From Prauserella isguenensis (GTDB lineage Bacteria > Actinomycetota > Actinomycetes > Mycobacteriales > Pseudonocardiaceae), in NCBI RefSeq assembly GCF_014191605.1, contig NZ_JACHWU010000002.1, positions 310,001-374,000 of the forward strand: DNA of 64,000 nt, in the 5' to 3' direction. This document shows positions 39,592-55,615 of the stretch, piece after piece. The position numbers and the translations under genes were made by a program. The notes beneath the pieces are model-generated. The model was not told the DNA's origin, searched no databases, and was given only the letters and a program-made list of their open reading frames with translations. Position 1 is the first letter of the stretch; each line of letters opens with the position of its first letter.

Positions 39592-40182
39592 TTCGGCACC
39601 TCCTCGGAATGCATTTGCTTCCACGGTACCGGCGATCACCGACAAGAAAAGGCTTCGGCGCGTTACGGAATCGGTGCGTCGCACGGCCCGACCGACTACC
39701 CACAGCTCCGCGCAGGGATGCAGAACTCCGCCGCACTGCGCAATTTCCACCGAACGGCCGCACCGTCCGCGCGCGTCGCGGCCGCGCGCCACGGCCGCCC
39801 GTGGACCGGACAACCCGGACACCGCACCACGATGCGGTGAATCATGATCGACATCGGGACCACGTCCGGGTCGCCCAAGGATCTTCGCAGCGCACGTCCC
39901 ACTCGAGCGGTGCGACGGCGTCGCGCTGTACGTGGGCCTCGCGCGTCACCGTCGCGACTGCGCCAGAGCCCGTCTCCCCTTGTATCCGTCCGCGGTCCGC
40001 CGGGATTCTCGCCCCTCCCCCGCACCAGCACGGCTACGTGCGGGTCGCGCTGCTCACGCCCGGGTCGCCGGCCACCCGGTGACCGACGGTGGTACACGGG
40101 TGGATGAGTGGTGGGAACCGACGCCGATACGATCACATCGCACCGAGGGGGCCACAGCTCGCGCCGACGTAAGGGGACTCGC
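39592..40182. other. Gene-free interval upstream of mpa (591 bp)
   Basis: The longest stretch without a convincing gene. It contains the divergent promoters of mpa and the gene at 40183; no strong TANNNT-N7-start signature, tRNA, or repeat array is visible. A minus-strand open frame (39696-40184) has lower third-position GC (about 80%) and no domain. The plus-strand TACGAT at 40128-40133 is a candidate -10 for the downstream gene. Confidence 0.5.
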
Positions 40183-40965
40183 ATGACCTATCCGCCGCAG
40201 CAACCCGGACCGGGTCAACCCGACCCCTACGGTCAGCAGCCGGGACCGTACGGCCAGCCCGGTCCGTACGGTCAGCAGCCGCCCCCGCCCGGCCCGTACG
40301 GGCACCAGGATCCTTACGGGCAGCAGCAGTTCGGGCAGAACCCGTACGGCCAGGACCCGTACGGTCAGCAGCCCTACGGTCAGAATCCGTACGGTCAGCA
40401 GCCCTACGGTGGCCAGCCCGGCGGCCCGGGCGGCGAGCCGCCGAAGAGCAAGACCGGTCTCATCGTCGGCATCGCCGTCGGCGCCGTCGTGCTCCTCGCC
40501 GGCGTGTTCGCGTTCCTCGCCTGGGTCGCGCCCGGATTCCTCCTCGAGGACGACGAGAGCTCGGAAGGCGGCGACAACAACGCCGCGCCAGCAACGAGCC
40601 AGTCGAACGAGCCGACGACCTCGGCGCCGGAGACCTCACCGCAGACGGAGACCAGCGAGGGCGCGCCGTCGGACGGACGCGCGCCCGGTGCCAAGGCGAC
40701 GCCCGAGGCGACCGCGCAGGCCATCGTTGCCGGGTTCAACTCCGGCGATCGCCAGACCGTGTCCGAGACGATCTGCCTGAGCAAGCCGCAGGAGGTGCCG
40801 CCGATCCCGGACGGCGTCGAGGTCCAAACGGCCGGCTCCCCCCAGGTCAGCGGCGACACGGCGAAGGTCCCCGCCAAGAACGTCACGCAGAACCGGGACT
40901 ACTTCATCGTGCTCAAGAACGAGGGCGGCGGCTGGTGCTATCTGGGCGACCAGGTCACGTCCTGA
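40183..40965 (+). CDS. Tyr/Gln/Pro-repeat membrane protein with DUF4878-like domain
   Basis: 260 residues. The cytoplasmic N-terminus (1-85) consists of imperfect PYGQQ/PYGQN repeats. One membrane helix follows (LIVGIAVGAVVLLAGVFAFL), then a Ser/Thr/Glu-rich linker and an external domain (ATAQAIVAGFNSGDR to the end) of the lumazine-binding/DUF4878 shape with two cysteines. ATG 40183 has AAGGGGA upstream. Envelope protein of unknown role. Confidence 0.75.
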   Translation: MTYPPQQPGPGQPDPYGQQPGPYGQPGPYGQQPPPPGPYGHQDPYGQQQFGQNPYGQDPYGQQPYGQNPYGQQPYGGQPGGPGGEPPKSKTGLIVGIAVGAVVLLAGVFAFLAWVAPGFLLEDDESSEGGDNNAAPATSQSNEPTTSAPETSPQTETSEGAPSDGRAPGAKATPEATAQAIVAGFNSGDRQTVSETICLSKPQEVPPIPDGVEVQTAGSPQVSGDTAKVPAKNVTQNRDYFIVLKNEGGGWCYLGDQVTS

Positions 40966-41004
40966 CGCAGGACGCGGCCTGACGTCGGGCCCCCGCACGG
41001 TCGA

Positions 41005-41048
41005 GGCGGCCGTGCCGGCACGGTCAGCACCGTCCCGGCACGGCCGCC
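41005..41048. terminator. Bidirectional hairpin terminator
   Basis: Perfect 14-bp stem GGCGGCCGTGCCGG (41005-41018 with 41035-41048) between convergent genes. Confidence 0.75.
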
Positions 41049-41107
41049 GTCCCCGGTACGACACCCGACCGGAGGCGTGGGTCGGACCCCGAAGGCGGCG
41101 GTGGCCC

Positions 41108-42004
<897 letters not shown>

Positions 42005-43147
42005 TCAGCGGGTGCGGCGGTTCCCGGAGAGCGCGGCACGCAGGTCGTCGCGGTGCAGCACGCCCGCGGGCCTGCCCTCGTCGTCGACGACGAGGAACTG
42101 CCACGCTGCCACCTCCGCGACGCGTTCGATCACCGCATCGCCCGTCTCCGACTCCAGCAGCACCGTCTCCGCGCGGATCGGTTCGGCCGCCAGTTCGGCG
42201 GGCGCCCGGGGGGATTCCGCGGCCAGCTGTTCGGCCGCGCTCTCGTCGAGCAGTCCCGCCGCGACCCCGTCGGCACGCACGAGCACCACTCCCCTGCCCG
42301 CCGACGCCGACAGCGCCGACTCCACGGGGCTCTCGGCGGGCAGTTGCAGCACCGGTCGCGTCAGGTCGCCGAGCGCCAGTCCGGTCGGCCAGCTGCGCCG
42401 CTGTTCGGCGGCCATCTCACCGGTGGCGCCGGTGACCACGAACCACGCCGTCACGACACACACCCCGAGCCGCAGCCAGCGGTCGTCGCTGCCCTCCGCC
42501 AGGCCCCACAGTGCCCACACCAGCAGGCCGAGCGCGACCAGGCCGCCACCGAACACGGCCGCGCGTGTGCCCGACGCGCGTCTGCCCGTCAGTGACCACA
42601 CGCCCGCCCGCAGCATCCGGCCGCCGTCGAGCGGGAGTCCGGGCAGCAGGTTGAACACACCGACCGCGAGGTTGGCCACCGCGCACTGGGCGACCAGCAG
42701 CCACACCGCACCGCCGGGCGGTACCGCGACCAGCAGCAGCCCGCAGAACACGGCGAGCAGTACGGACACGAGAGGGCCCGCCGCCGCGACCAGGCCCTCG
42801 TGTTTCGGCTTCTCCGGGCTGCGCGCGACCTCGGACAACCCCCCGAGCAGGAACAGCCGCAGCCTGCGCACGGGAATGCCCAGCCGGATCGCGACGAGCA
42901 CGTGGCCCAATTCGTGGGCGAGCACCGAGAGACCCAGCAGGACCGCGAACGCGGCCGCGAGCGCCCACGACACGCCGGGCCCGGCGCCCGGCAGCAGCCT
43001 GCCGACGAGCGGGCTGTACAGCACCACGATGAGCAACGAACCGATCCACCAGGACGGCGCGAGCAGCACGGGTACGCCGCCCACCCGGAACAGCAGCAGG
43101 CCGCCGTCGGTCACGGTCCCGCGCCGGGACCGGCTCGTCGTGTTCAC
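42005..43147 (-). CDS. M50 site-2 protease with CBS pair
   Basis: 380-residue intramembrane metalloprotease (Rip3/SpoIVFB-like class). The zinc motif HELGH is at 78-82, the third ligand in NLLPGLPLDGGRM, and the C-terminal cytoplasmic part carries two CBS motifs (about 260-375). Cleaves membrane-anchored regulators such as anti-sigma factors in known cases. GTG 43147 is preceded at 6 nt by TACCCT (43154-43159, minus strand); leaderless. Divergent from the RecB-like gene. Confidence 0.9.
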   Translation of the reverse strand: MNTTSRSRRGTVTDGGLLLFRVGGVPVLLAPSWWIGSLLIVVLYSPLVGRLLPGAGPGVSWALAAAFAVLLGLSVLAHELGHVLVAIRLGIPVRRLRLFLLGGLSEVARSPEKPKHEGLVAAAGPLVSVLLAVFCGLLLVAVPPGGAVWLLVAQCAVANLAVGVFNLLPGLPLDGGRMLRAGVWSLTGRRASGTRAAVFGGGLVALGLLVWALWGLAEGSDDRWLRLGVCVVTAWFVVTGATGEMAAEQRRSWPTGLALGDLTRPVLQLPAESPVESALSASAGRGVVLVRADGVAAGLLDESAAEQLAAESPRAPAELAAEPIRAETVLLESETGDAVIERVAEVAAWQFLVVDDEGRPAGVLHRDDLRAALSGNRRTR

Positions 43148-43270
43148 CAGGTGAGGGTAGAACGCGCCGTGTGCAACGACCGTTATCGCCGCGCCCGCAC
43201 CCGCCGGTTCGCAGCCCGGCCCGGCGCCCGTGATCGGGTTCTGTCGGAGCCGCTCGTTAGGGTTCCGGGC

Positions 43271-43294
43271 ATGAGCGAGGGCACGCATGACTGA
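43271..43294 (+). CDS. Possible leaderless 7-codon leader ORF
   Basis: ATG 43271 lies 7 nt after TAGGGT (43258-43263), so it would be the 5' end of the mRNA. It encodes MSEGTHD and stops at 43292-43294, overlapping the start of the RecB-like gene (ATG 43287). Its own codons supply GAGGG, the ribosome site for that gene. Translation of the leader could govern the nuclease start. Confidence 0.45.
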   Translation: MSEGTHD

Positions 43295-44231
43295 CACGCC
43301 GGCCGCCACCACCGCCACGAACTCCACGACCGCCACGGATCCGGCAGGACCCGGGGACGGCGCCGCCGAGGCTCCGCAGCCGCGCAGGCGTCCGGCGCTG
43401 TCACCGTCCAGGGCGGGCGATTTCAAGCAGTGCCCGCTGCTCTACCGGTTCCGTGCCATCGACCGGATTCCGGAGCCGCCCACGAAGGCTCAGGTTCGGG
43501 GCACGCTGGTGCACTCGGTGCTCGAGCGGCTGTTCGCGCTCCCCCGTGGCGATCGCAGTCCCGACCGTGCGCACGAACTGCTCGCACCGACGTGGGACGA
43601 GCTGTCTCGGGAGAGCCCCGAGTGGGCCGAACTGTTCGCCGAGGACGAAACGGGGCCGGACGGCAACGCGGTCGGCTGGCTCGACGGGGCGGGCAAGCTG
43701 CTCGACGCGTACTTCGACCTGGAGGATCCGAACCGGCTCGATCCGGAGGCCTGCGAGCTGCACGTCGAGACCGAGCTCGGGTCCGGCGTGCGGCTGCGCG
43801 GCTACGTCGACCGCCTGGACGTCGCGCCGACCGGTGAGATCCGCGTCGTCGACTACAAGACGGGTGCGGCACCGCGGGCCATCGGCGAGGCCAAGGCGCT
43901 GTTCCAGATGAAGTTCTACGCCGTGGTGCTGTGGCGCACCCGCGGCGTGGTGCCCCGGCAGCTGAAACTGATGTACCTGCGCGACGGTCAGGACCTGGCC
44001 TACACCCCCGACGAGGACGAGCTGGCCCGGTTCGAACGCACCCTCGAGGCGATCTGGTCGGCCATCCTCACGGCGGGCAGGACCGGCGACTTCCGGCCGA
44101 GCCCGAGCAAGCTGTGCGACTGGTGCGCTCATCAGGCGCTGTGCCCGGCGTTCGGCGGCACGCCACCGGAGTATCCGGGCTGGCCCGAACCCACCGGCGG
44201 TGAGGAGACGGTGCTCGACCGCGCGGATTGA
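43287..44231 (+). CDS. RecB-family PD-(D/E)XK nuclease with Fe-S cysteines
   Basis: 314 residues. The nuclease core is YVDRLD and VVDYKTG (PD-DxK acid and lysine). Four cysteines fit a 4Fe-4S clasp: C49 (KQCPLLY) and C277, C280, C286 (CDWCAHQALC), as in AddB and Cas4-type exonucleases. No helicase domain and no cas genes nearby. Predicted DNA exonuclease in repair. Coupled to a possible leader ORF at 43271. Confidence 0.87.
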   Translation: MTDTPAATTATNSTTATDPAGPGDGAAEAPQPRRRPALSPSRAGDFKQCPLLYRFRAIDRIPEPPTKAQVRGTLVHSVLERLFALPRGDRSPDRAHELLAPTWDELSRESPEWAELFAEDETGPDGNAVGWLDGAGKLLDAYFDLEDPNRLDPEACELHVETELGSGVRLRGYVDRLDVAPTGEIRVVDYKTGAAPRAIGEAKALFQMKFYAVVLWRTRGVVPRQLKLMYLRDGQDLAYTPDEDELARFERTLEAIWSAILTAGRTGDFRPSPSKLCDWCAHQALCPAFGGTPPEYPGWPEPTGGEETVLDRAD

Positions 44232-44344
44232 CCTCCTCGCGGGCCGTGGCAGGATCGACCGGCACGCCGGGCGCGATCAGCGCCGCACGCGAGTGCTGAT
44301 CGACTACTCTGTTCCCGGCAACCGAGATCCAGGAGCGGCGCACA

Positions 44345-45274
44345 GTGCAGATCACCTCGGTGGTCAATCAGAAGGGCGGGGTCGGCAAGACCGCGCTGAG
44401 TGTCGGCGCCGCCGCCGCACTCGCGGAGCGGGGCCGCCGCGTTCTTCTCATCGACCTGGACCCGCAAGGGCACGCCACCACGGAGATGCTCGGCCTGCCG
44501 GAGGTCCCGGCCGACCGGCCCAGCCTCGCCAAGGCGCTCACGAAGACGTGGCGCGGCCCCGTCGAGGAACTCGTCGTGCCGCATCCGCGCAGCAACGTCG
44601 GCCGCGGCGGAGCGTTCGACGTCATCCCCACGTCCCCCGGCATGTTCGACCTGGTCCGCAGACTGGACCAGTTCCGCGTGCCGGGCTGGCAGTTGGCGCG
44701 GGTCATCCAGTTCGCCAATTACGACCACGTGGTCATCGACTGCCCGCCCGCACTCGACGTGCTGACCAACAACGCGCTCGTGGCCACCAGCGGCCTGCTC
44801 GTCCCGGTCCAGCCTGACCGCACCAGCATCCGTGCGCTGCGCCTCATGCAGGAGCAGATCCGCCATCTGGAGACGATGGTCGAGCGGCCGCCGATCGACT
44901 ACTACGGCCTCGTCCCGGGGCTGTACCGGCGTCCCATCTCCGGGTACGCCGTCACCGCGCTGCGCGAGCTGGAACAGTTCGGCATCCCGGTGCTGCCGCA
45001 CGTGCCGCTCGGCGTGGTCATGAACGAAGCCGCCGCACGCGGCATGCCGGTCACGACGTTCGCCCCGGAGACCACGCAGGCCACGGCGTTCCGCGAGGTC
45101 GCCCGCGCCCTGGACGAATCGCCGGGCACGGCCCCGCAGGCGCCCGCGGCTCCGGAGCAGGACTTCGACTTCGAGGACTTCATCACCGACGTCGCGCACA
45201 CCCGCAACGCCAACGACAACGGCGCCCGCAAGAAGCTTTACGACCTGCTGCCGAAACGCGGCAAGGACAACTAG
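44345..45274 (+). CDS. ParA/MinD-family ATPase
   Basis: 309 residues with deviant Walker A KGGVGKTAL (10-18), switch I DLDPQGHATTEM and Walker B-like VVIDCPPALD. Full-length ParA-type but no ParB gene or parS site nearby, so a chromosomal orphan that may position a protein cargo. The C-terminal 45 residues (ESPGTAPQ... KRGKDN) are an extra acidic/basic tail. GTG start with AGGAG 9 nt upstream; promoter -10 TACTCT at 44305-44310. Confidence 0.88.
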   Translation: MQITSVVNQKGGVGKTALSVGAAAALAERGRRVLLIDLDPQGHATTEMLGLPEVPADRPSLAKALTKTWRGPVEELVVPHPRSNVGRGGAFDVIPTSPGMFDLVRRLDQFRVPGWQLARVIQFANYDHVVIDCPPALDVLTNNALVATSGLLVPVQPDRTSIRALRLMQEQIRHLETMVERPPIDYYGLVPGLYRRPISGYAVTALRELEQFGIPVLPHVPLGVVMNEAAARGMPVTTFAPETTQATAFREVARALDESPGTAPQAPAAPEQDFDFEDFITDVAHTRNANDNGARKKLYDLLPKRGKDN

Positions 45275-45328
45275 CTCGGACGCCGCAGCCGTCATCGGCC
45301 CGGCGATCCCTCCCCGCGCGGATCGGCC

Positions 45329-46318
45329 TCACGACGCGGTAGCCGTGGACTCCCGGTGCCGCAGTGCCGGATTGGCGACCCCGGTGCGCTTCGGCGCTGA
45401 CACGATCATCGAGGTCTCGATGGAGTCGACATCGTCGATCCACCCGCTGCGGGTGGTGAACTCGTGCAACGACGGGATGTCCGTCGTCACGACGTGCACG
45501 AGCAGCTGATACTCGCCCGCGAGCGCCACCGCGTACCGCACCGAGGAGAACTCCCGCAGCGCCAACCCCACAGCGTCGACGTTGCGCGGTGGCACCTTGA
45601 CCCACAACAGTGCCTCGATCGGCAGGCCCAGCAGTGCCGGATCCACCACCGCGCGCACGAGTAGCCTGCCCCGGCCACGCATCGCCTCGATCCGCCTGCG
45701 CACGGTCGGCTCCGACAGTCCGGACAAGGTCGCCAGCTCCTCACCCGGCCTGCGACCGTCGTCGGCAAGCAGCCGCAGCAGCAGGGCCTCGTCCTTGTGG
45801 AACGGCTGCGCCGACGGGTTCGGCTGGTCCGGCAGGGACGGCGCCAGTGCCGCAGCCTCGTCGGCGGTGAGCAAGCCCGGCTGCCACTCGTGCACGGCTC
45901 GGTAGTAACGCAATGCAGGGTTGGTGGAGCACGAGATCAACCCCGGTGTTCCCGGAAGCTCATCGAGGATGAGCGACTCGAACAGGTGTGGCGGGCAGCT
46001 GATCTCGGCGGCGCAGTCGGCAGATCCGGTCAGCAGGTAGGTGAAGGTGGTGTCGTCGCGGCGGGCCATGGCGGTAGCGGCGACGCGGAGCATGCCGGGG
46101 TTGCAGCGCAGCCGCAGCACGGCCATGTCACCGCGGCGCGCCAGGCCGTGCACGGCGACCCTCCCGCTGGAAAGCAGCCGCGCGCCGCGGCGCGCGACCG
46201 TGCGTTCCGGCTCGTCGAGCACGCGGGCGATCCGGTGCCACGAGGCGCGTCCGTCGAGCTGGAGCGCGGCGACGATGCGCCGGTCCAGGGCGTCCAAGTG
46301 CGGTGTTTCGGGTTCCAC
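45329..46318 (-). CDS. Double Lrp/AsnC-type regulator
   Basis: 329 residues containing two Lrp/AsnC units in tandem: HTH-1 (LDALDRRIVAALQLDGRASW) with its RAM domain up to about 165, then HTH-2 (LLRLLADDGRRPGEELATLSGLS) with a second RAM domain. Only the second half may bind ligand canonically. GTG start 112 bp from, and divergent to, the amidase operon, whose control is its likely job. Confidence 0.87.
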   Translation of the reverse strand: MEPETPHLDALDRRIVAALQLDGRASWHRIARVLDEPERTVARRGARLLSSGRVAVHGLARRGDMAVLRLRCNPGMLRVAATAMARRDDTTFTYLLTGSADCAAEISCPPHLFESLILDELPGTPGLISCSTNPALRYYRAVHEWQPGLLTADEAAALAPSLPDQPNPSAQPFHKDEALLLRLLADDGRRPGEELATLSGLSEPTVRRRIEAMRGRGRLLVRAVVDPALLGLPIEALLWVKVPPRNVDAVGLALREFSSVRYAVALAGEYQLLVHVVTTDIPSLHEFTTRSGWIDDVDSIETSMIVSAPKRTGVANPALRHRESTATAS

Positions 46319-46322
46319 CAGT

Positions 46323-46336
46323 CAGATTTTTGGCTG
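46323..46336. promoter_or_regulatory. Possible Lrp-type operator
   Basis: CAGATTTTTGGCTG has the CAG/CTG arms and AT-rich centre of Lrp-family sites and lies 5 bp upstream of the regulator's start codon in the AT-richest stretch of the intergenic region. A single site seen by eye. Confidence 0.4.
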
Positions 46337-46429
46337 ATTCCGTCATTATCGCAATAGGTCTTGTCCGAAAACCGATACCCGCTCACGCTTGTCCTTCAAT
46401 CGTGCGTCGTGGCACACCGGAAGGAGTCA

Positions 46430-47845
46430 ATGGTGACCGAAGAGCTCTGCCGGCTCACCGCCGTCGAGCAGGCCGCCCTGATACGTGGCCGGGAGATCAG
46501 CTCGGTCGAGCTGGTGCGTGCCCACCTGGACCGGATCGAGGCACACAACCCCGCGGTCAACGCGATCGTCACCCTGGCGCCCGAGCGTGCGCTGCACGAG
46601 GCACACGACGCGGACCGCAGGCTCGCACGCGGGGAGTCGCCGGGTCCGCTGCACGGGCTGCCGGTCGCGCACAAGGACCTGCACCTAACGGCCGGCCTGC
46701 GGACGACATTCGGCTCACCGACGCTCGCCGACCATGTGCCGGACTCCGACGACCTCGTGGTCGAACGGCTGCGCGCAGCCGGCGCGATCACGATCGGCAA
46801 GACCAACACGCCCGAGTTCGGCGCAGGCTCTCATACGTTCAACCCGGTCTTCGGCACCACCTGCAATCCCTACGACCTCACGCGGAGTGCGGGCGGCAGC
46901 AGCGGCGGCGCGGCTGCCGCGCTCGCCGCGGGATTCCAGCCGATCGCGGACGGCAGCGACATGGGAGGGTCCCTGCGCAACCCGGCGTCGTTCTGCAACG
47001 TCGTCGGCATGCGCCCGTCGGCGGGCAGAGTGCCGAGCTGGCCGTCGACGTTCGGCTTCAGCGGACTGAGCGTGCAGGGACCGATGGCGCGGACAGTCTC
47101 CGACGTCGCGTTGACGCTGTCCGTGATGGCCGGTCCGGACGACCGCAGCCCGATCGCGCTCACCACACCGGGAGAGACCTTTCGTGCGCCGCTGGAACGG
47201 GACCTGACGGGACTGCGTGTCGCCTGGACGCCCGATTTCGGTGGACTCGTACCGGTCGACCCCGACGTGCTGGCGGTGCTGGGACGGCAGGTGACAGCGT
47301 TCGAACAGCTCGGCTGCCATGTCGACGACGCGTGCCCGGACTTCACCGGCGCCGACGACGTCTTCCGCACAGTGCGAGCGTGGCAGTTCGCGCAGGCCCA
47401 CGGCGCGCTCGTGGACCGTTCGACCGAGCAGGTCAAGGAATCGTTGCGGCGCAACGTCGAGCAGGGCAGGGCATTGTCCGGAGAGGACATCAGTCGTGCC
47501 GAGGCCCTGCGGACCGAACTGTTCCACCGCATGCGAGGGTTCTTCACCCACTACGACGTGCTGCTGGCGCCCGTATGCCAGGTCGTGCCGTTCGACGCGG
47601 CACTCGAATACCCGACCACGGTCGCCGGCACCGTCCAGGACGACTACCTCGGCTGGATGCGCTCGTGCTACGTCGTCTCCGCGGTCGGCAACCCAGCCCT
47701 CTCGGTTCCCGGCGGCTTCACCGCCGACGGGTTGCCGGTCGGACTGCAGATCATTGGCCCGCACCGAGCGGACCTCACCGTGCTGCAAGTCGCTCACGCC
47801 TTCGAACGGCTGACCGGCCACGGACACCACGCCCCCGCGCTCTGA
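46430..47845 (+). CDS. Amidase signature-family amidohydrolase
   Basis: 471 residues with the full Ser-cisSer-Lys triad: K82 (VAHKDLH), GGSSGG (cis-serine S157) and nucleophile S181 in GSDMGGSLRNPA. Hydrolyses an amide; N-acyl amino acid, amino-acid amide or aryl amide substrates are possible. ATG 46430 follows AAGGAG by 4 nt; upstream in-frame ATG 46361 is non-homologous. First gene of an operon with two membrane proteins and an M20 amidohydrolase. Confidence 0.9.
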   Translation: MVTEELCRLTAVEQAALIRGREISSVELVRAHLDRIEAHNPAVNAIVTLAPERALHEAHDADRRLARGESPGPLHGLPVAHKDLHLTAGLRTTFGSPTLADHVPDSDDLVVERLRAAGAITIGKTNTPEFGAGSHTFNPVFGTTCNPYDLTRSAGGSSGGAAAALAAGFQPIADGSDMGGSLRNPASFCNVVGMRPSAGRVPSWPSTFGFSGLSVQGPMARTVSDVALTLSVMAGPDDRSPIALTTPGETFRAPLERDLTGLRVAWTPDFGGLVPVDPDVLAVLGRQVTAFEQLGCHVDDACPDFTGADDVFRTVRAWQFAQAHGALVDRSTEQVKESLRRNVEQGRALSGEDISRAEALRTELFHRMRGFFTHYDVLLAPVCQVVPFDAALEYPTTVAGTVQDDYLGWMRSCYVVSAVGNPALSVPGGFTADGLPVGLQIIGPHRADLTVLQVAHAFERLTGHGHHAPAL

Positions 47846-47904
47846 GGTCCCCCACACGTCCCGCCGGCGCCGCGGGGTCGGTTCACACCCAACCGGAGGT
47901 CGCC

Positions 47905-48603
47905 ATGAACACTCCATCCGTCACGAACTCACCCGTGCTGTGGATCGCGGCACTGGGCGTCTTCGCCGTCATCGCCGTGCAGTCCATTGTGTACTTCCGG
48001 GCGGCGAAACGTGCCGCGCCCGCCGCAGACATGACCGACAGCGAACTGAAGACGGCTTTTCGCGCCGGTGCGGTGTCGGCGATCGGGCCTTCGCTCGCCG
48101 TGGTGCTGGTCGCGATCACCCTGCTCACGGTGTTCGGCACGCCCGTCGTCCTGGTGCGGATAGGGCTGATCGGTTCGGCAGGCTTCGAGACCGTGACAGC
48201 GCAGACCGCCGCGCAGTCAGCGGGTGTCGAGCTGGGCAGCACCGGATACGACAACGCGACCTTCGCCCTCGTGTTCTTCACCATGAGCGTCGCAGGCGCG
48301 GCCTGGATGGTCAGCACGCTGATCTTCGTGCCGTTGCTGAGCCGGGCGGACCGCAGGATCCGCAAGCTCAACCCGGCCGTGATGACGATCGTGCCCGGAG
48401 CGGCCATGATCGCCGGATTCTCGTACCTGGGGCTGACGGAGGTGCGGAAATCGGGTGTGCACCTGGCCGCCTTCCTGACCGGAGCGCTGGTGATGATGCT
48501 GTTGCAGGTCGCGGCGGTACGCCTGCGCAGGACCTGGCTCAAGGAATGGTCCGTCGGTATCTCCGTCGCCGCCGCGCTCGGAGCCGCGGCGATCGCCCTG
48601 TAG
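47905..48603 (+). CDS. DUF5058-family membrane protein
   Basis: 232 residues with five or six membrane helices. Recognised as DUF5058-like from its MTDSELKTAFRAGAVSAIGPSLAV opening and internal GAAWMVSTLIF. These proteins come with a second membrane protein and a peptidase or amidase, so a transporter subunit is plausible. Strong GGAGG site. 59 bp after the amidase. Confidence 0.72.
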   Translation: MNTPSVTNSPVLWIAALGVFAVIAVQSIVYFRAAKRAAPAADMTDSELKTAFRAGAVSAIGPSLAVVLVAITLLTVFGTPVVLVRIGLIGSAGFETVTAQTAAQSAGVELGSTGYDNATFALVFFTMSVAGAAWMVSTLIFVPLLSRADRRIRKLNPAVMTIVPGAAMIAGFSYLGLTEVRKSGVHLAAFLTGALVMMLLQVAAVRLRRTWLKEWSVGISVAAALGAAAIAL

Positions 48604-48625
48604 GCCAGGAGAAAGAAGCCCAACC

Positions 48626-49363
48626 ATGACCACACAGTCCGCGTCCGCGTCCACATCCGCACCGCCCACGACGTCGCTGCAGGGCTTCGACCGCACGACG
48701 TCGCGCTGGGGCAGAGGCACGATGCTGGCCGGGCTCGCCATCTCGCTGGCAGGTCCGCTCTACCTGATGTTCGGGCTCGACTACTGGCCCGGCTGGTCCC
48801 CGGTCGTGCAGGCCTGGGTGTCGGTAGCCGTCGTGTTCGGCGTGTTCTGGGTCGCCGAACCCATCACGTACTTCCCGATGCTCGGGTCGGCGGCGAGCTA
48901 TCAGGCGTTCATGATCGGCAACATCGCCAACAAACTGTTGCCGTCCGCGATCACCGCCCAGCAGGCCATCGGGGCGAAGCAGGGCACGAAGAAGGCCGAG
49001 ATCGCCGCCGTCACCGCGATCGTCGGTGCCGCCGCCGTGCATCTGGTCTCGTTACTGGTGTTCGTGGGACTGCTCGGGACATGGCTGGCGTCACTGATTC
49101 CCGACTCCGTGGCGGAGGTCTTCGGCTACATCGTGCCCGCCGTGCTGGGGCCCGTACTCGTCCAGGCGTTCATGGCGGCGCGGCAGCACCGGACCAGGGT
49201 GATCGCGCTGGCGTGCGGCGCGGCCGGGGTGTTCGTCCTCGTCCGGTTCGTGCCGTCGAGCTCCGTGTACGCCATGGCCGTGTGTGTCACCGCCGCGATC
49301 GCGCTGTCGCTGGCGCTGCGCGACAGGACCGGAACCACCGACGACGAGGAGGCCACCGCATGA
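48626..49363 (+). CDS. Membrane protein, partner of the DUF5058 protein
   Basis: 245 residues, six predicted membrane helices after a Ser/Thr/Pro-rich N-terminus (MTTQSASAS...). The block FPMLGSAASYQAFMIGNIANK is family-specific. Follows DUF5058 by 22 bp with AGGAGA and overlaps the peptidase gene by ATGA. Not assignable to a named transporter class by eye; likely the second half of the carrier. Confidence 0.7.
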   Translation: MTTQSASASTSAPPTTSLQGFDRTTSRWGRGTMLAGLAISLAGPLYLMFGLDYWPGWSPVVQAWVSVAVVFGVFWVAEPITYFPMLGSAASYQAFMIGNIANKLLPSAITAQQAIGAKQGTKKAEIAAVTAIVGAAAVHLVSLLVFVGLLGTWLASLIPDSVAEVFGYIVPAVLGPVLVQAFMAARQHRTRVIALACGAAGVFVLVRFVPSSSVYAMAVCVTAAIALSLALRDRTGTTDDEEATA

Positions 49364-50622
49364 CCGAACCGACCGCAGCCGCTGCCGTACTGACCGGGAT
49401 GGCCGGTGCCGGCGACGAGCTGCAGAGCCTGTATCGGCGGCTGCATGCCCACCCGGAACTGTCCATGCAGGAACACCGCACGGCCGGACTCATCGAACAG
49501 CGGCTGGCTGTCCTGGGCATGACCGTCTTCCGGTGCGGCGGCACCGGGGTCGTCGGAGTACTGGACAACGGTCCCGGGCCGACGATCGCGTTCCGGGCCG
49601 ACACCGATGCCCTTCCGGTGGAGGAACGAACCGGCCTCACCTACGCGTCCACGGCGGACGGAACGCTGGCGGACGGGACCAGTACCAAGGTCATGCACGC
49701 GTGCGGACACGACACGCACGTCGCCTCGTTGCTCACCGCCGCGAGCCTGCTGCACGGCGCGCGTGCGGAATGGTCGGGGACGATCGTGTTCATCTTCCAG
49801 CCCGGTGAGGAAATCGCCGCCGGCGCACAAGCCATGATCGACGACGGACTGTGGGAGCGCGCACCGAAACCGGCGGTGATCCTCGGTCAACACGTCTCGC
49901 CCGGGCCCGCGGGCGTGGTCGGCCACTGCACCGGGACGGCGGCGTCGATGGCGGATTCCTGGGAGGTACTCGTCCGTGGCCGGGGTGCCCACGGGTCGCA
50001 GCCGCACCACTCGGTCGACCCGATCGTGCAGGCGGCACACACGATCACGCGCATCCAAACGGTGGTGTCACGGGAGGTGGATCCGGTCGACGCCGCTGTG
50101 GTGACCGTCGGCAAGTTCGCGGGCGGCACCAAGGAGAACATCATTCCGGATTCTGCGGTGTTCACCCTCAACGTACGCACCTTCGACGAGCCGCTACGGG
50201 AGCACGTGCTGGAATCACTGCGCCGCATCATCCGGGCCGAAGCCATGGCATCGGGAGCGCCCGAACCGGAGATCACGGAGTTGTCCCGGTTTCCCCGGCT
50301 CGTCAACGACGCCGAGGTGACCCGACGAGCGGTCGAGGCGCTCGCCGCGCAGTGGGGCCAGGACGGCGTCACCGAGGCGCAACCACTGATGGGCAGCGAG
50401 GACTTCGGGGCACTGGGCGACGCGATCGATGCGCCCTCGTGCTTCTGGTTCATCGGCGGGACCGACCCGGAGCGTCATGCGGCGGCCACGGCTGCGGGCA
50501 CCGTCTCGACGGACATCCCGTCGAATCACTCGCCCTTCTTCGCTCCGGTCCCCGAGCTCACTCTGCCGCGCATGGTGGAGGCTGCCGTAGTGACGTCCCT
50601 GGAGTTCCTCGAACGCCCCTGA
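49360..50622 (+). CDS. M20-family amidohydrolase
   Basis: 420-residue metallo-amidohydrolase (HipO/IAA-amino acid hydrolase type). Zinc ligands: HACGHDTH, the catalytic PGEE and closing GSEDFG. Removes acyl groups from N-acyl amino acids or similar conjugates. ATGA overlap with the membrane gene. With the amidase it may act in sequence on an imported amide. Confidence 0.9.
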   Translation: MTEPTAAAAVLTGMAGAGDELQSLYRRLHAHPELSMQEHRTAGLIEQRLAVLGMTVFRCGGTGVVGVLDNGPGPTIAFRADTDALPVEERTGLTYASTADGTLADGTSTKVMHACGHDTHVASLLTAASLLHGARAEWSGTIVFIFQPGEEIAAGAQAMIDDGLWERAPKPAVILGQHVSPGPAGVVGHCTGTAASMADSWEVLVRGRGAHGSQPHHSVDPIVQAAHTITRIQTVVSREVDPVDAAVVTVGKFAGGTKENIIPDSAVFTLNVRTFDEPLREHVLESLRRIIRAEAMASGAPEPEITELSRFPRLVNDAEVTRRAVEALAAQWGQDGVTEAQPLMGSEDFGALGDAIDAPSCFWFIGGTDPERHAAATAAGTVSTDIPSNHSPFFAPVPELTLPRMVEAAVVTSLEFLERP

Positions 50623-50670
50623 GGGCAGCTCCGCGCCGGTGGAGCGGATCACCGCCGCTCGTGACACGTC

Positions 50671-50705
50671 GCCGAGCGGGGCCCCGTTGCGGGGCCCCGC
50701 TCGGC
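50671..50705. terminator. Hairpin terminator
   Basis: Perfect 15-bp stem (50671-50685 with 50691-50705) with loop GTTGC, between the amidohydrolase and hisG, which converge. Confidence 0.85.
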
Positions 50706-50720
50706 CATGACGCCGGTGTC

Positions 50721-51566
50721 CTACAGGCGGCAGGAACGGATGTCGGAGGCCAGGATCGCCTTCGCTCCGACGGCGGCGAGCTCGTCCATCACCGCGTTGA
50801 CCTTCTTGCGCGACACCATCGCCCGCACGGCCACCCAGTCCGGGTCGGCCAGGGGCGCGACCGTGGGCGATTCGAGTCCCGGCGTGATCGACGCGGCCTG
50901 TTCCAGCAGCGACCGGGGGCAGTCGTAATCGAGCATCATGTAGTGCTGGGCGAACACCACACCCTGCAACCGGGCGGTGAGCTGCTCGACCGCGGGGGTC
51001 TTGCCGTTACCGCTGTGTTCGATGAGCACGGCCTCGGACACGCAGATCGGGTCGCCGAACGCCACGAGCTCATGCTGGCGCAGCGTCCGGCCGGAGCCGA
51101 CCACGTCGGCGATCGCCTCGGCGACGCCGAGCTGTACGGAGATCTCGACCGCCCCGTCCAGCGGGATGACGTCGGCCTCGACGCCCTGCCGGGCCAGGTC
51201 GTCCCGCACCAGCCGGGGGTAGGACGTGGCGAGCCGCTTGCCCTGCAGATCCGCCACGGTCCAGTCGCGGTCGGCCGGTCCCGCGTAGCGGAACGTCGAA
51301 CCGCCGAACCCGAGGCCGAGCTTCTCCTGCACGTCCGCACCCGAGTCCAGCGCGAGGTCGCGGCCGGTGATGCCCAGGTCGAGTTCCCCGGAGCCGACGT
51401 AGATCGGGATGTCCTTCGGCCGAAGGAAGAAGAACTCGACGTCGTTGACCGGGTCGAGCACCGTCAGGTCCCGCTGCTCATGTCGCTTGCGGTAGCCCGC
51501 TTCACCGAGCATCTCCGACGAGGGTCCGGCGAGCGCACCCTTGTTCGGCACCGCGACACGCAGCAT
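50721..51566 (-). CDS. hisG: ATP phosphoribosyltransferase HisG
   Basis: 281 residues, long-form HisG: catalytic domains with [11 protein letters not shown] and the PRPP loop [13 protein letters not shown], plus the C-terminal ACT-like domain for histidine feedback (from about 205). First step of histidine synthesis. Follows hisE by 17 bp with GAGAGG before the ATG. Confidence 0.96.
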
Positions 51567-51583
51567 CTGACGTCCTCTCTCGC

Positions 51584-51847
51584 TCACAGGTACCGGTAGA
51601 CGTCGTCCATCGAGACGCCCCGGCCGATCAACAGCACCTGAACCCGATACAGCAGCTGGGACACCTCTTCGGCCAGCCGCTCGTCGGATTCGTGTTCGGC
51701 GGCGATCCACACCTCGCCCGCCTCTTCCAGCACCTTCTTGCCCTGCGCATGCACGCCGGCGTCCAGCGCCGCGACGGTGCCCGAGTCCGCTGGACGGGTG
51801 CGGGCACGCTCGGTCAGCTCGCCATACAGTTCGTCGAAGGTCTTCAC
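51584..51847 (-). CDS. hisE: Phosphoribosyl-ATP pyrophosphatase HisE
   Basis: 87-residue MazG-like all-alpha enzyme with [16 protein letters not shown] and the second metal-binding [15 protein letters not shown]. Second step of histidine synthesis, co-transcribed with hisG. GTG start 51847. Confidence 0.95.
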
Positions 51848-51910
51848 GCGGAGAATCCTGTCATCCGCGGCCGCCGGGCCCTCGAGCGGCCTGGCCCGTG
51901 ATGCCGCAGG

Positions 51911-52606
51911 TCACCGGCTCGGGATCAGCCGGGCCAGGTCACCGGCGCCGACTCCCACGAGCGACGGCCGGAACGTCCGCCCCGGACCTCGGTCGACGAC
52001 CACGTCGGCCTCGACGACCAGGACGGCGCAGCCTGCGGCTTCGGCGGACGCGGCGCCGACGGGTGAGTCCTCGACGGCCACGCAGGTGGCGGGATCCACC
52101 CCGAGCAGCCGGGCGGCCCGCAGGTACGGCTCGGGATGCGGCTTGTTCTTGCCGTCGACCTCGTCCCCGCACACCGTGGCGGCGAAGAATTCTCGCCCGA
52201 TCGTGTTGAGTGCGAGTTCGGTCAGACCGCGCTCGGTGGAGGTCACCAACGCGCACGGAACGCCCGTCGCACGGAGCTCTTCCAGGGCTGCCCTGGCGCC
52301 GGGCCGCCAGGGCAGCGCGCCGGAGAACAACTCGGCCGTGCGCCCGCGCATCCAGCTCGCGACGTCGTCGGCGGCCTCGTCGGTCACCGCCCGCCCTGCG
52401 ATCTCCAGCAGCCGCCGGGACGTGGCCGCCATGTTCGACCCGACGAGCGCCGTCCGCTGCTCGAGGGTCAGCTCCCCGCCCAGCCGCTGGGTGGCCTCCG
52501 CGAGCACCACGTCCCAGAGCTTCTCGGAGTCGATCAGGGTGCCGTCCATGTCCCACAACACGGCGGCCGGACCGCCTTCAGCGAGGCCGGAGGACGGATG
52601 GATCAC
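51911..52606 (-). CDS. HAD-superfamily phosphatase (subfamily IA)
   Basis: 231 residues: motif I WDMDGTLIDSE, motif II VTSTERG, motif III GKNKPHPEPY and motif IV AVEDSPVGA. beta-Phosphoglucomutase/phosphatase-like; substrate unknown. The GTG at 52606 has GGAGAAG 4 nt upstream. Distinct from the HAD domain at 5876-6460. Confidence 0.88.
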   Translation of the reverse strand: MIHPSSGLAEGGPAAVLWDMDGTLIDSEKLWDVVLAEATQRLGGELTLEQRTALVGSNMAATSRRLLEIAGRAVTDEAADDVASWMRGRTAELFSGALPWRPGARAALEELRATGVPCALVTSTERGLTELALNTIGREFFAATVCGDEVDGKNKPHPEPYLRAARLLGVDPATCVAVEDSPVGAASAEAAGCAVLVVEADVVVDRGPGRTFRPSLVGVGAGDLARLIPSR

Positions 52607-52703
52607 GGACTTCTCCTCGGTTCGGCGAGCGCACCGCGGGCAGCGGGCGCCCGTCCAGCCTACGGTGGCGAACCGAGTCGCCGTCGGGACGTACGCTGGG
52701 CGG

Positions 52704-53606
52704 GTGAGCACGCCCTTCAACGACTTCACCGACGGCTCCCCCGACGGCGGCGAGGACCGGCAGCGTCGCGGTCCGGTCATGATCGTCTGTTTCGACGGGT
52801 GGAACGACGCGGGCGACGCGGCGAGCACCGCCCTCGAGCATCTCGCGCTGAACTGGGATGCGACGCCGCTGGCCGAGCTCGAACCGGACGACTACTACGA
52901 CTTCCAGGTCGCCCGGCCCACGGTGCGGATGGTCGACGGCGTGACCCGCCGGGTCGAGTGGCCGACGACGCGGTTGTCGGTGTGCCGCCCCGCGGGCTCC
53001 GACCAGGACGTCGTCCTGGTGCAGGGGCCCGAGCCGAGCATGCGGTGGCGCGCGTTCTGCGCCGAGCTGCTCGAGCACGTCGAACAGCTCGGGGTGCAGA
53101 CCGTGATCACGATCGGCGCGCTCGTCGGTGACACCGCACACACCCGCCCGATCCCGGTGACCGGCACGGCCTACGACGCCGACGCCGCCAAGCGGTTCGG
53201 TCTCGAACGTGAGCGGTACCAGGGCCCCACGGGCATCCTCGGAGTGTTCCAGGACCTGTGCGTCAAGGAAGGCGTGCCCGCGGTGTCGCTGTGGGCGGTC
53301 GTGCCGCACTACGTGTCGCACCCGCCGTCGCCGAAGGCCACGATCGCACTGCTGAACAAGCTGGAGGACATCCTCGACGTCGGCATCCCGCTGGGTGCGC
53401 TGCCGGAGCAGGCCGAGGACTGGCAGAAGACCGTCAGCGAGATGGCCGACGAGGACGAGGAGATCTCCGAGTACGTGCGCTCGCTCGAAGAACGGGGTGA
53501 CGCGGAGATCGACCTCGAAGGAGCGAGCGGCGACATGATCGCCGCCGAGTTCGAGCGCTACCTGCGGCGGCGCAGGAACGACGGGCCCGGCCCCGCCGGC
53601 CGGTGA
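52704..53606 (+). CDS. PAC2-family protein (proteasome-assembly-chaperone fold)
   Basis: 300 residues. The fold of eukaryotic PAC2 is seen in GPVMIVCFDGWNDAGDA, VLVQGPEPS and ITIGALVGD blocks, with an actinobacterial helical C-terminus rich in acidic residues. Function in bacteria is unsettled. TACGCT lies 6 nt before GTG 52704; leaderless. Overlaps the MFS gene by GTGA. Confidence 0.82.
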   Translation: MSTPFNDFTDGSPDGGEDRQRRGPVMIVCFDGWNDAGDAASTALEHLALNWDATPLAELEPDDYYDFQVARPTVRMVDGVTRRVEWPTTRLSVCRPAGSDQDVVLVQGPEPSMRWRAFCAELLEHVEQLGVQTVITIGALVGDTAHTRPIPVTGTAYDADAAKRFGLERERYQGPTGILGVFQDLCVKEGVPAVSLWAVVPHYVSHPPSPKATIALLNKLEDILDVGIPLGALPEQAEDWQKTVSEMADEDEEISEYVRSLEERGDAEIDLEGASGDMIAAEFERYLRRRRNDGPGPAGR

Positions 53607-54745
53607 CCGACCCGCGCAACGACGATGCCCCTGCCGCCCGGGTGGGGCTGCAGCTGGGCGCCCTGCTCGGCCCGTTCGGCGGCGGGATCGTCGCGGCCGT
53701 CCTTCCGGAGATCGGGACGAGCTTCGACGTCTCCGCCCAGGCGGCGGCGTCCTCGCTGACCGTGTACCTGCTGCCGTTCGCCGCGTTGATGCTCGTGTCG
53801 GGCACACTCGGCCAGCGCTGGGGTCCCGCCCGCACGATCCGGCTCGCCTACGTCGCGTACGCCGTGGTCACCCTCGTCGCCGCCGTGGCGCCGTGGTTCT
53901 GGCTCTTCCAGTTCGGCCGGGGTCTGATGGGATGCGCCAACGCCTTCACGACGCCGTTGCTGATGGCGCGGCTGGCGGCGATGACACCGCCGGACCGGCT
54001 CGGAAAGGCGCTCGGCGTGTTCGGCGCGATGCAGGCGGTGGGCCAGACCTCGGCCCCGCTGGTGGGCGGCCTCGCGGCCGCGGCGTCGTGGCGGTGGGCG
54101 TTCGTCGGCATCGCCCTGGTCGGCGCCGTGCTGGCAGCCTGGCCGCTGCCCGCCGACGACGAGGACGACCGCGCAGCCACCACCCGGCTCCGCGATCCCT
54201 GGCGCGCGGCCGTCCTGTTGCCGGGGCTGGCGGCGCTGACCGCGTGGGGCTGCCTGGCGGGTCTGTCGTTCCTCGTGGCGTTCCGTCTGCAGGACGCGTT
54301 CGGCTTCGGTGCGGGAATGCGAGGCCTGCTGCTGACCGGGTTCGGTGTCGCCGGATTCCTGGGAGCCCGGTTCGCAGGCGCCGCCGCGGACCGCTTCGGC
54401 GGCCGCCTCACGGCGCTCGGCGGACTGCTCGCCGGTGCGGCGCTGGTCGTCGTCATCGGCGCGACCGGACTCGCGCCGGTCGCCGTGGCGGCGTGGGCCG
54501 CGGCCGGAGTGTGCAGTCAGCTGGTGCTCGTCGCCGTCAACACGACCGTGCTCTCGGGCGACGGGCCCGGGCGGAGCGGTGCGATATCGGTGGTCCAGGC
54601 CATGCGGTTCCTGGGCATGGCTGCGGCACCGGCCGTGTTCACCGCGCCATACCACGCCGATGCGCTGCTGGGCTTCGCGCTTCCTGCGGCGGTGCTGCTC
54701 GCCACCGTGCCCCTCGCGGCGACGCTCACCCGCGCCCGCACCTGA
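53603..54745 (+). CDS. MFS transporter
   Basis: 380 residues, 12 predicted membrane helices, drug/metabolite-exporter type. LGPFGGGIVAAVLPEIGTSF opens TM1 and GRGLMGCANAFTTPLLMARL marks TM4. GTG start within the stop codon of the PAC2 gene, so the pair is co-translated. Substrate unknown. Confidence 0.88.
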   Translation: MTDPRNDDAPAARVGLQLGALLGPFGGGIVAAVLPEIGTSFDVSAQAAASSLTVYLLPFAALMLVSGTLGQRWGPARTIRLAYVAYAVVTLVAAVAPWFWLFQFGRGLMGCANAFTTPLLMARLAAMTPPDRLGKALGVFGAMQAVGQTSAPLVGGLAAAASWRWAFVGIALVGAVLAAWPLPADDEDDRAATTRLRDPWRAAVLLPGLAALTAWGCLAGLSFLVAFRLQDAFGFGAGMRGLLLTGFGVAGFLGARFAGAAADRFGGRLTALGGLLAGAALVVVIGATGLAPVAVAAWAAAGVCSQLVLVAVNTTVLSGDGPGRSGAISVVQAMRFLGMAAAPAVFTAPYHADALLGFALPAAVLLATVPLAATLTRART

Positions 54746-54772
54746 GCGGCCGGTCCGCGAGCTGCCCGCGGG

Positions 54773-55615
54773 TCAGTCCGAGGTCAGGATCTTCCGGAAG
54801 GCGACCGGGCCACGGGCGCGTCGGCGCCATTCACGCGGATAGCCGAGCGAGACCTCTTCGAAGCGCACCCCGTCCGCGTACGTGGTGCGCGGGATGTGCA
54901 GGTGCCCGTACACGGCGAGGCGCGCGCGGAACCGGATATGCCAGTCCTCGGTCCTGGTCGTGCCGCACCACATGGCGAACTCCGGGTAGTACAACGGCGC
55001 GGTCGGATGCCGGTGCAGCGGCCAGTGCGACAGCAGCACCGTCTCGTGGTCGTCGGGGATCTCGGCGAGGCGCTTCTCGCTCAGCGTCAAGCGATCCTCG
55101 CACCACTGGGCCCGGCCCGCGTACGGTTCGTGCCCGAGCAGGTACTCGTCGGTGCAGACCACACCGGCCTCCCTGGCCTGCCGTAGCGCCTCGTCCAGCG
55201 ACGCACCCTGTGTCGCCCGCGTGCGCCAGCTGTAGTCGTACAGCACGAACAGCGGCGCGATCGTGAGCGGGCGCTCGGCATACGGCCACACGGGGAACTC
55301 GTCCTCGGGGGTGAGTACACCGATCTCCCGGCATCGGCGGACCAGCTCGTCGTAGCGCGGACGACCCGACACCTGGTCGGGATCCTTCGCCGTGGTCCAC
55401 AACTCGTGGTTGCCCGGCACCCACACGACCGTGGCGAACCGCTCCCGCAGCCGTGCCAGCGTGTCGACGACGGTGCCGAGCCGCTCGCCTACGTCACCGG
55501 CGACCAACAGCCAGTCGTCGGGGGTGTCCGGCCGGATCACGTCGACGTGCGACTCGTTGCCGGTGTGGGTGACGTGCAGGTCGCTGGTCGCGTGGAGGGT
55601 AGGCACGCGGCCCAC
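54773..55615 (-). CDS. Calcineurin-like metallophosphoesterase
   Basis: 280 residues with metal-binding motifs SDLHVTHTG, LLVAGDVGER, VPGNHELW, LLSHWPLH and GHLHIPR (D-H, GD, GNHE, GHxH). Nucleotide or nucleic-acid phosphoesterase. GTG 55615 preceded by GGGGAG at 5 nt. Lies 35 bp after mshC. Confidence 0.88.
   Translation of the reverse strand: MGRVPTLHATSDLHVTHTGNESHVDVIRPDTPDDWLLVAGDVGERLGTVVDTLARLRERFATVVWVPGNHELWTTAKDPDQVSGRPRYDELVRRCREIGVLTPEDEFPVWPYAERPLTIAPLFVLYDYSWRTRATQGASLDEALRQAREAGVVCTDEYLLGHEPYAGRAQWCEDRLTLSEKRLAEIPDDHETVLLSHWPLHRHPTAPLYYPEFAMWCGTTRTEDWHIRFRARLAVYGHLHIPRTTYADGVRFEEVSLGYPREWRRRARGPVAFRKILTSD

Follow-up and report, generated by a model that had tools for sequence, protein, structure and literature searches.

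The window, a stretch of 64,000 nucleotides from Prauserella isguenensis (contig NZ_JACHWU010000002.1, positions 310,001 to 374,000 of the forward strand), carries at positions 45329-50622 a group of five genes, in which a regulator gene on the minus strand (45329-46318) is divergent from a four-gene operon on the plus strand. The operon encodes an amidase-signature hydrolase of 471 residues (46430-47845), a DUF5058 membrane protein of 232 residues (47905-48603), a second, partner membrane protein of 245 residues (48626-49363) and an M20 amidohydrolase of 420 residues (49360-50622). The amidase and DUF5058 genes are separated by 59 bp and the DUF5058 and partner genes by 22 bp, and the partner and M20 genes overlap in ATGA. 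This gene content, divergence and spacing had been described in an earlier analysis of the letters by themselves (the sequence-only reading), and the spacings proved exact. Comparison with homologous loci makes it probable that these genes encode a previously undescribed system for importing and cutting glycine-containing compounds; more specifically, we consider it fairly likely that the operon takes up and hydrolyses a compound to yield glycine, under glycine-dependent control.

The two hydrolases and the regulator fall into known families. The amidase matches Pfam PF01425 (E = 1.5e-109, 367 bits) and NCBIfam PRK07486 (545.5 bits vs a cut-off of 465), and it contains the Ser-Ser-Lys motifs of amidases, HKD at 81, GGSSGG at 155 and GSDMGGS at 175. 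The M20 enzyme matches Pfam Peptidase_M20 (6.9e-30) and M20_dimer, and belongs to the TIGR01891 subfamily of NCBIfam (272 bits vs a cut-off of 153.75); it has the metal-site motifs HACGHD at 113, PGEE at 148, GQH at 176 and NHS at 389, and its best solved relative is 6slf, an N-alpha-acyl-glutamine aminoacylase (5.1e-84). As inspection by eye revealed no signal peptide in either enzyme, both are taken to be cytoplasmic. The regulator (329 residues) has two AsnC-type helix-turn-helix (HTH) domains and one recognised ligand-binding domain, with Pfam matches to HTH_AsnC-type (1e-18, in two stretches), HTH_24 at 180-214 and AsnC_trans_reg at 239-307. The combination of AsnC HTH and ligand-binding domain places it in the Lrp/AsnC family, as a tandem-Lrp protein; it scored below the cut-offs of all NCBIfam equivalogs and thus matches no named member. 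A scan of the operon for promoters and terminators returned nothing exceeding shuffled sequences.

The two membrane proteins are less familiar. The DUF5058 protein, the proposed first half of a carrier, matches PF16481 across the entire profile (1-222 of 222; E = 8.9e-62, 209 bits vs a gathering cut-off of 28.2), and no paper naming DUF5058 or PF16481 was present in the literature searched. The partner, the proposed second half, matches no Pfam family at E ≤ 1, and when 27 partner proteins were compared with Pfam, those other than the window's gave scattered weak matches, the best with E = 0.0036; its single NCBIfam match, to YtaF, is sub-threshold (16.8 bits vs a cut-off of 149.6). A 19-residue hydropathy scan gave 7 peaks for DUF5058 and 9, several of them overlapping, for the partner, in agreement with two polytopic membrane proteins. 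Profile searches of the PDB at E ≤ 10 found no relative of either. A single-sequence structure model of the partner was unusable (predicted local distance difference test (pLDDT) 51), and a fair model built from 32 sequences (pLDDT 82.9, predicted template modelling score (pTM) 0.62) had no fold match in the PDB by Foldseek at E ≤ 0.001. In line with the sequence-only reading, which could name no transporter class for the pair, no described class was found with Pfam, NCBIfam, PDB profiles or the fold search with the partner model. The notion that DUF5058 and its partner are homologous to each other was also considered and dropped, finding no support in hhalign (a probability of 0.5 out of 100).

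To place the operon in context, 94 loci were compared, comprising 9 of 12 plasmid matches (H4, H5 and H9 not being among them), 62 of 62 genome loci, 22 further stretches and the window. Where a locus was present in both a short and a longer version, only the longer was counted (the short duplicates are L001-L003, L076-L082, L084-L094, L096, L097 and L099-L105); loci below the cut-off (L004, L083, L095 and L106) were set aside, as was a copy with an internal stop (L098). Separate counts on 91 loci exclude the window, L006 and L008. The partner adjoins DUF5058 in 93 of the 94 loci (90/91 in the separate count), with L107 the exception in both, and the pair spans actinobacteria, proteobacteria, spirochaetes, Desulfotignum relatives and haloarchaea. 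Such near-obligate pairing is most simply read as two subunits of one carrier, which would act as a single complex. At L107 (genome G566), DUF5058 stands without a recognisable partner beside a gene that is gyrB-like by eye; in two other genomes of the same sample (L109 and L111) the pair lies at a gyrB-like site without an M20 gene, and G566 has a complete trio elsewhere (L108). Some copies look broken or error-bearing, with the partner in separate frames (L005 and L006, both on plasmids, and L062) or, also on a plasmid, with a stop in DUF5058 near transposases (L008).

The module is rare. In the sample of the window's phylum, 3 of 396 genomes (own genome included) have DUF5058 above the Pfam cut-off, and in the search of relatives it occurred in 1 of 41 genomes, the window's own, and in none of the other 40. 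Phylum samples around the spirochaete L075, the haloarchaeon L071 and the Desulfotignum locus L074 gave 12/149, 3/148 and 6/198 genomes, respectively, with the centre genome included in each, and no phage record matched. Rarity of this order (3/396 and 0/40) is what might be expected if unrelated genes had come together by chance, yet the same pair, usually with an M20 gene, recurs in several phyla and the spacing is tight; a chance neighbourhood was rejected on the basis of this conservation, and we regard it as very unlikely.

M20 hydrolases accompany the pair well beyond expectation. An M20 enzyme is encoded within 4.5 kb in 80 of the 94 loci, shorter pieces counted (77/91 in the separate count), vs approximately 2.2 of 94 expected if the density in the window's genome (13 M20 matches) held everywhere. 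By its own terms the sequence-only reading would have been refuted had the pair occurred mostly without hydrolases, and the comparison shows the reverse. Clustering divided these M20 enzymes into four sequence groups; with one example examined from each (two from the first), three groups belong to TIGR01891 and the fourth to ArgE/DapE. The existence of four groups suggests that the M20 association was probably built more than once, and the presence of differing enzymes beside the same pair argues for a functional need.

The amidase behaves differently. It is present in only 28 of the 94 loci, including Arthrobacter relatives, the haloarchaeon L013, and Amycolatopsis L045 and Microbacterium L049, which have gene sets similar to the four-gene operon of the window, and in six Arthrobacter-group loci (L026, L027, L037, L050, L053 and L054) it occurs without M20. 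Because of this distribution, the amidase looks more like an accessory or alternative hydrolase, and the two-step hydrolysis envisaged by the sequence-only reading is not supported as an obligatory order. In the haloarchaeal locus L013, the trio is followed by an amidase (10233-11654) 37% identical to that of the window, giving the same enzyme set in an archaeon.

These data bear on a broader explanation, in which the operon is a general system for N-acyl amino acids or amides, with the amidase acting before the M20 enzyme and the glycine link confined to some relatives. The four-gene operon itself and the similar sets in L045 and L049 would suit it, as would the name, taken as a name only, of the nearest solved M20 relative. 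Further encouragement comes from mammals, in which, according to the portions of PMC7145423 available, N-acyl amino acids, including N-arachidonoyl-glycine, are hydrolysed both by PM20D1, an M20 enzyme, and by FAAH, which has the amidase signature; this is a precedent for overlapping M20 and amidase roles, although these enzymes differ from the system in the window in having no carrier, no operon and long acyl chains. The low frequency of the amidase and the six loci with amidase and no M20 make a fixed two-step order unlikely, and the linkage to riboswitches (in actinobacteria) and to glycine-cleavage genes (in actinobacteria and haloarchaea) described below points to glycine; overall, we consider a general system improbable.

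The evidence for glycine comes from relatives of the operon. The Rfam search covered 36 of the other 93 loci and positions 40000-55000 of the window, and our own riboswitch model, R1, was run on all 94 sources; R1 was built from 8 aptamers (L047, L055, L056, L068 and L072), two each from L047 and L055, so these two loci are not independent in the R1 search. In 10 loci from 9 genomes (L021, L047, L055, L057, L058, L061, L062, L063, L066 and L122; L057 and L061 are both from Nocardioides insulae DSM 17944), a match to the glycine riboswitch RF00504 above the gathering score immediately precedes DUF5058 on its strand, and R1 recovered the same ten. With all searches pooled, eight of the ten have two aptamers, and likely start codons are found tens of bases downstream. 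Beyond these loci and the leaders of glycine-cleavage (gcv) genes, R1 matched L006 (44.2 bits, on the opposite strand and below the Rfam score) and, weakly, L013, L032 and L035 (18-22 bits). All ten riboswitch loci contain an M20 gene. In four of them (L057, L061, L063 and L066) the fetched stretch contains no glycine-cleavage gene, so that here the riboswitch can be assigned to the operon of DUF5058.

Glycine-cleavage genes themselves are frequent neighbours. By profile they lie within 10.5 kb in 18 of the 94 loci, reduced to 16 on striking off L114, which by eye looks like a NifS-type cysteine desulfurase, and L067, a GcvT-like match of 31% only; 0.4-0.7 such neighbours would be expected, assuming that each genome, of 3.5-6 Mb, has a single gcv locus. 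Serine hydroxymethyltransferase (SHMT) is encoded nearby in 9 loci and serine dehydratase in 8. Glycine-cleavage neighbours are also found in Rhodococcus, Microbacterium, Arthrobacter, Micrococcus and Zhihengliuella, and on haloarchaeal plasmids (L009-L012, 4 of the 5 fetched) the trio lies no more than ~7 kb from glycine-cleavage components or SHMT, lpdA or lipA. In addition, TRIC/Gly_transporter-like proteins are encoded near the module in 11 of the 94 loci (L028, L030, L031, L046, L052 and L068, and haloarchaeal L010, L011, L013, L073 and L121), those in L011 and L028 being assigned to 'Glycine transporter' (Gly_transporter) in a Pfam check; they may provide an exit or a second route for glycine.

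The same neighbours raise the alternative that the pair carries free glycine, either for uptake or for export against glycine toxicity, while the M20 enzyme handles glycyl peptides that enter by other means. Glycine-cleavage genes beside the pair in 16 loci, and intact pair loci without M20, would be in keeping with this. A plain glycine carrier needs no M20 enzyme, though, and M20 enzymes from four sequence groups accompany the pair in 80 loci, including all ten with riboswitches; a separate TRIC/Gly_transporter-like protein is, moreover, already encoded nearby in 11. We thus consider a free-glycine carrier unlikely, if deserving of attention, and favor import of a glycine conjugate. Once released in the cell, glycine would be usable in the window's own organism, as its genome has, on another contig, a gcvP-gcvT-gcvH-glyA cluster that comes with a glycine riboswitch of its own.

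In place of a riboswitch, the window has the tandem-Lrp regulator, and across the actinobacterial loci the two are mutually exclusive. Of 63 such loci (with the window, placed by its nearest relatives, counted among them), 48 have only a tandem-Lrp gene (within 6 kb), 10 only a riboswitch, none both and 5 neither (L006, L025, L056, L059 and L060), giving a Fisher p value of 2e-8 for loci that are not independent. Both states occur within Microbacterium, with tandem-Lrp in L049 and a riboswitch in L055, L058, L062 and L066.

A putative operator accompanies the regulator. A common 15-mer was found in nine of 20 promoter regions read, and occurs exactly in the window as TGGCTGATTCCGTCA at positions 46331-46345 of the plus strand, between the regulator and amidase genes. 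It is the sole match within 2 mismatches in the window and the sole exact match in the 4.95-Mb genome; the number of genome matches within 2 mismatches (8, window site included) is near that of the control (5 for the reversed pattern). At up to 2 mismatches, 32 of the 33 close-regulator loci have the site upstream of DUF5058, as does 1 of the 15 remote-regulator loci, namely L048, whose regulator is in fact close but truncated. It was absent, at the same tolerance, from all 10 riboswitch loci, 36 others and 330 mononucleotide shuffles. With the nine discovery loci removed, 23 of 24 close-regulator loci, mostly Arthrobacter relatives, retain it, and among the matches listed an inverted second copy (up to 3 mismatches) lies 21 bp away in at least 10 Arthrobacter relatives. 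From these patterns, the tandem-Lrp protein probably binds the 15-base site and takes the place of the riboswitch as glycine sensor. The sequence-only reading had proposed an Lrp-type sensor for the product amino acid; a sensor of this kind fits, and the comparison suggests that the amino acid would be glycine.

Taken together, the data lead to the following proposal. DUF5058 and its partner would form a carrier that imports a small glycine conjugate, candidates being N-acylglycines (hippurate and N-acetylglycine, for example) and glycyl peptides. In the cytoplasm, the M20 enzyme would then cut the amide bond, and the glycine so released could pass to the glycine cleavage system, SHMT and serine dehydratase. 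The accessory amidase might broaden the range of substrates, or make the same cut on other amides, and the tandem-Lrp protein would sense glycine and act through the 15-base operator, where relatives use a glycine riboswitch. In this scheme we infer the union of the pair in a single carrier, the inward direction of transport, the identity of the substrate, the part played by the amidase and the response of the Lrp protein to glycine. Still more tentatively, in a judgement that stops slightly short of favoring it, the pair might represent a new class of heteromeric secondary carrier for glycine conjugates, shared by bacteria and haloarchaea, with the tandem-Lrp protein a riboswitch substitute that has its own operator. 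The proposal offers a first testable function for DUF5058 and for the unnamed membrane family almost always beside it, extends the glycine riboswitch regulon by a probable operon of carrier and hydrolase, and provides an example of RNA-based and protein-based sensing that apparently replace each other at the same operon.

Several observations weigh against a glycine-yielding system. Positions 40000-55000 of the window contain no RF00504 match above the gathering score, the whole window contains none with R1 at E ≤ 1, and no glycine gene was seen beside the operon; its connection to glycine is made by way of homologues and the regulator. Loci from Spirochaetota and the Desulfotignum phylum showed no convincing glycine-cleavage gene (the one profile match there is the NifS-like L114) and no glycine riboswitch, glycine reductase not having been sought. 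Fourteen of the 94 loci have no M20; two of these (L006 and L008) are broken copies, a third, L031, stops at a contig end, and the intact-looking ones are the six Arthrobacter-group loci, L109, L111, L119 and L120. The exclusion between riboswitch and tandem-Lrp gene partly tracks phylogeny, with riboswitches in Rhodococcus, Microbacterium, Nocardioides and one further genome. The remote tandem-Lrp group (14 loci with truncated L048 set aside, among them L014-L016, L028, L030, L038, L064, L065, L067, L068, L070 and L072) has 23-29% identity where BLAST aligned, with L068 recognised by profile only; it lacks the 15-base site and must use another.

The arrangement is a variation on known pairings of a carrier and an M20 enzyme; no described relative of this carrier was found. 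AbgT-AbgAB takes up p-aminobenzoyl-glutamate and hydrolyses it with M20 enzymes and, as here, the genes combine a membrane carrier with one or more M20 amidohydrolases, which liberate an amino acid from its N-acyl form; 13 of our loci have an M20 cluster that is presumably AbgB-like. In contrast, the carrier here would consist of two small proteins where AbgT is a single large one, the amino acid linked to the system is glycine and not glutamate, and neither the DUF5058 protein nor the partner of the window has an AbgT-type domain (no Pfam match at E ≤ 1). DUF969/DUF979, a two-protein carrier of 5-oxoproline, resembles the module in combining two small membrane proteins with a hydrolase, but the window pair has no Pfam match to DUF969 or DUF979 at E ≤ 1. 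The nearest organisational parallel, in the portions of the source available, is from Clostridioides difficile, in which a YfcC antiporter and an M20D amidohydrolase are under a lysine riboswitch (PMC11477304): there, too, a riboswitch-controlled transporter gene is in an apparent operon with an M20 gene, whereas the carrier family and the riboswitch ligand differ.

Published glycine riboswitch regulons, in the portions of the texts available, consist mainly of cleavage, serine and transporter genes (PMC3766115, PMC2211319, PMC12452182, PMC11477304), with gcv, glyA, serine dehydratase and the AGCS symporter as members (PMC3766115, PMC12452182, PMC11477304) and malate synthase in one of the four. 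The RNA class is the same as in our riboswitch loci, and some DUF5058 loci also carry gcv, glyA and sdaA. DUF5058, the partner and M20 do not appear as members in those portions of the regulon texts, supplementary gene tables aside, and among the matches listed in literature searches on TRIC glycine transporters, hippurate, N-acylglycine and regulons none concerned this system.

Downstream of the operon, two minus-strand genes (50721-51847), for which no connection to the module was seen, are hisG- and hisE-like by eye and lie tail to tail with the M20 gene.

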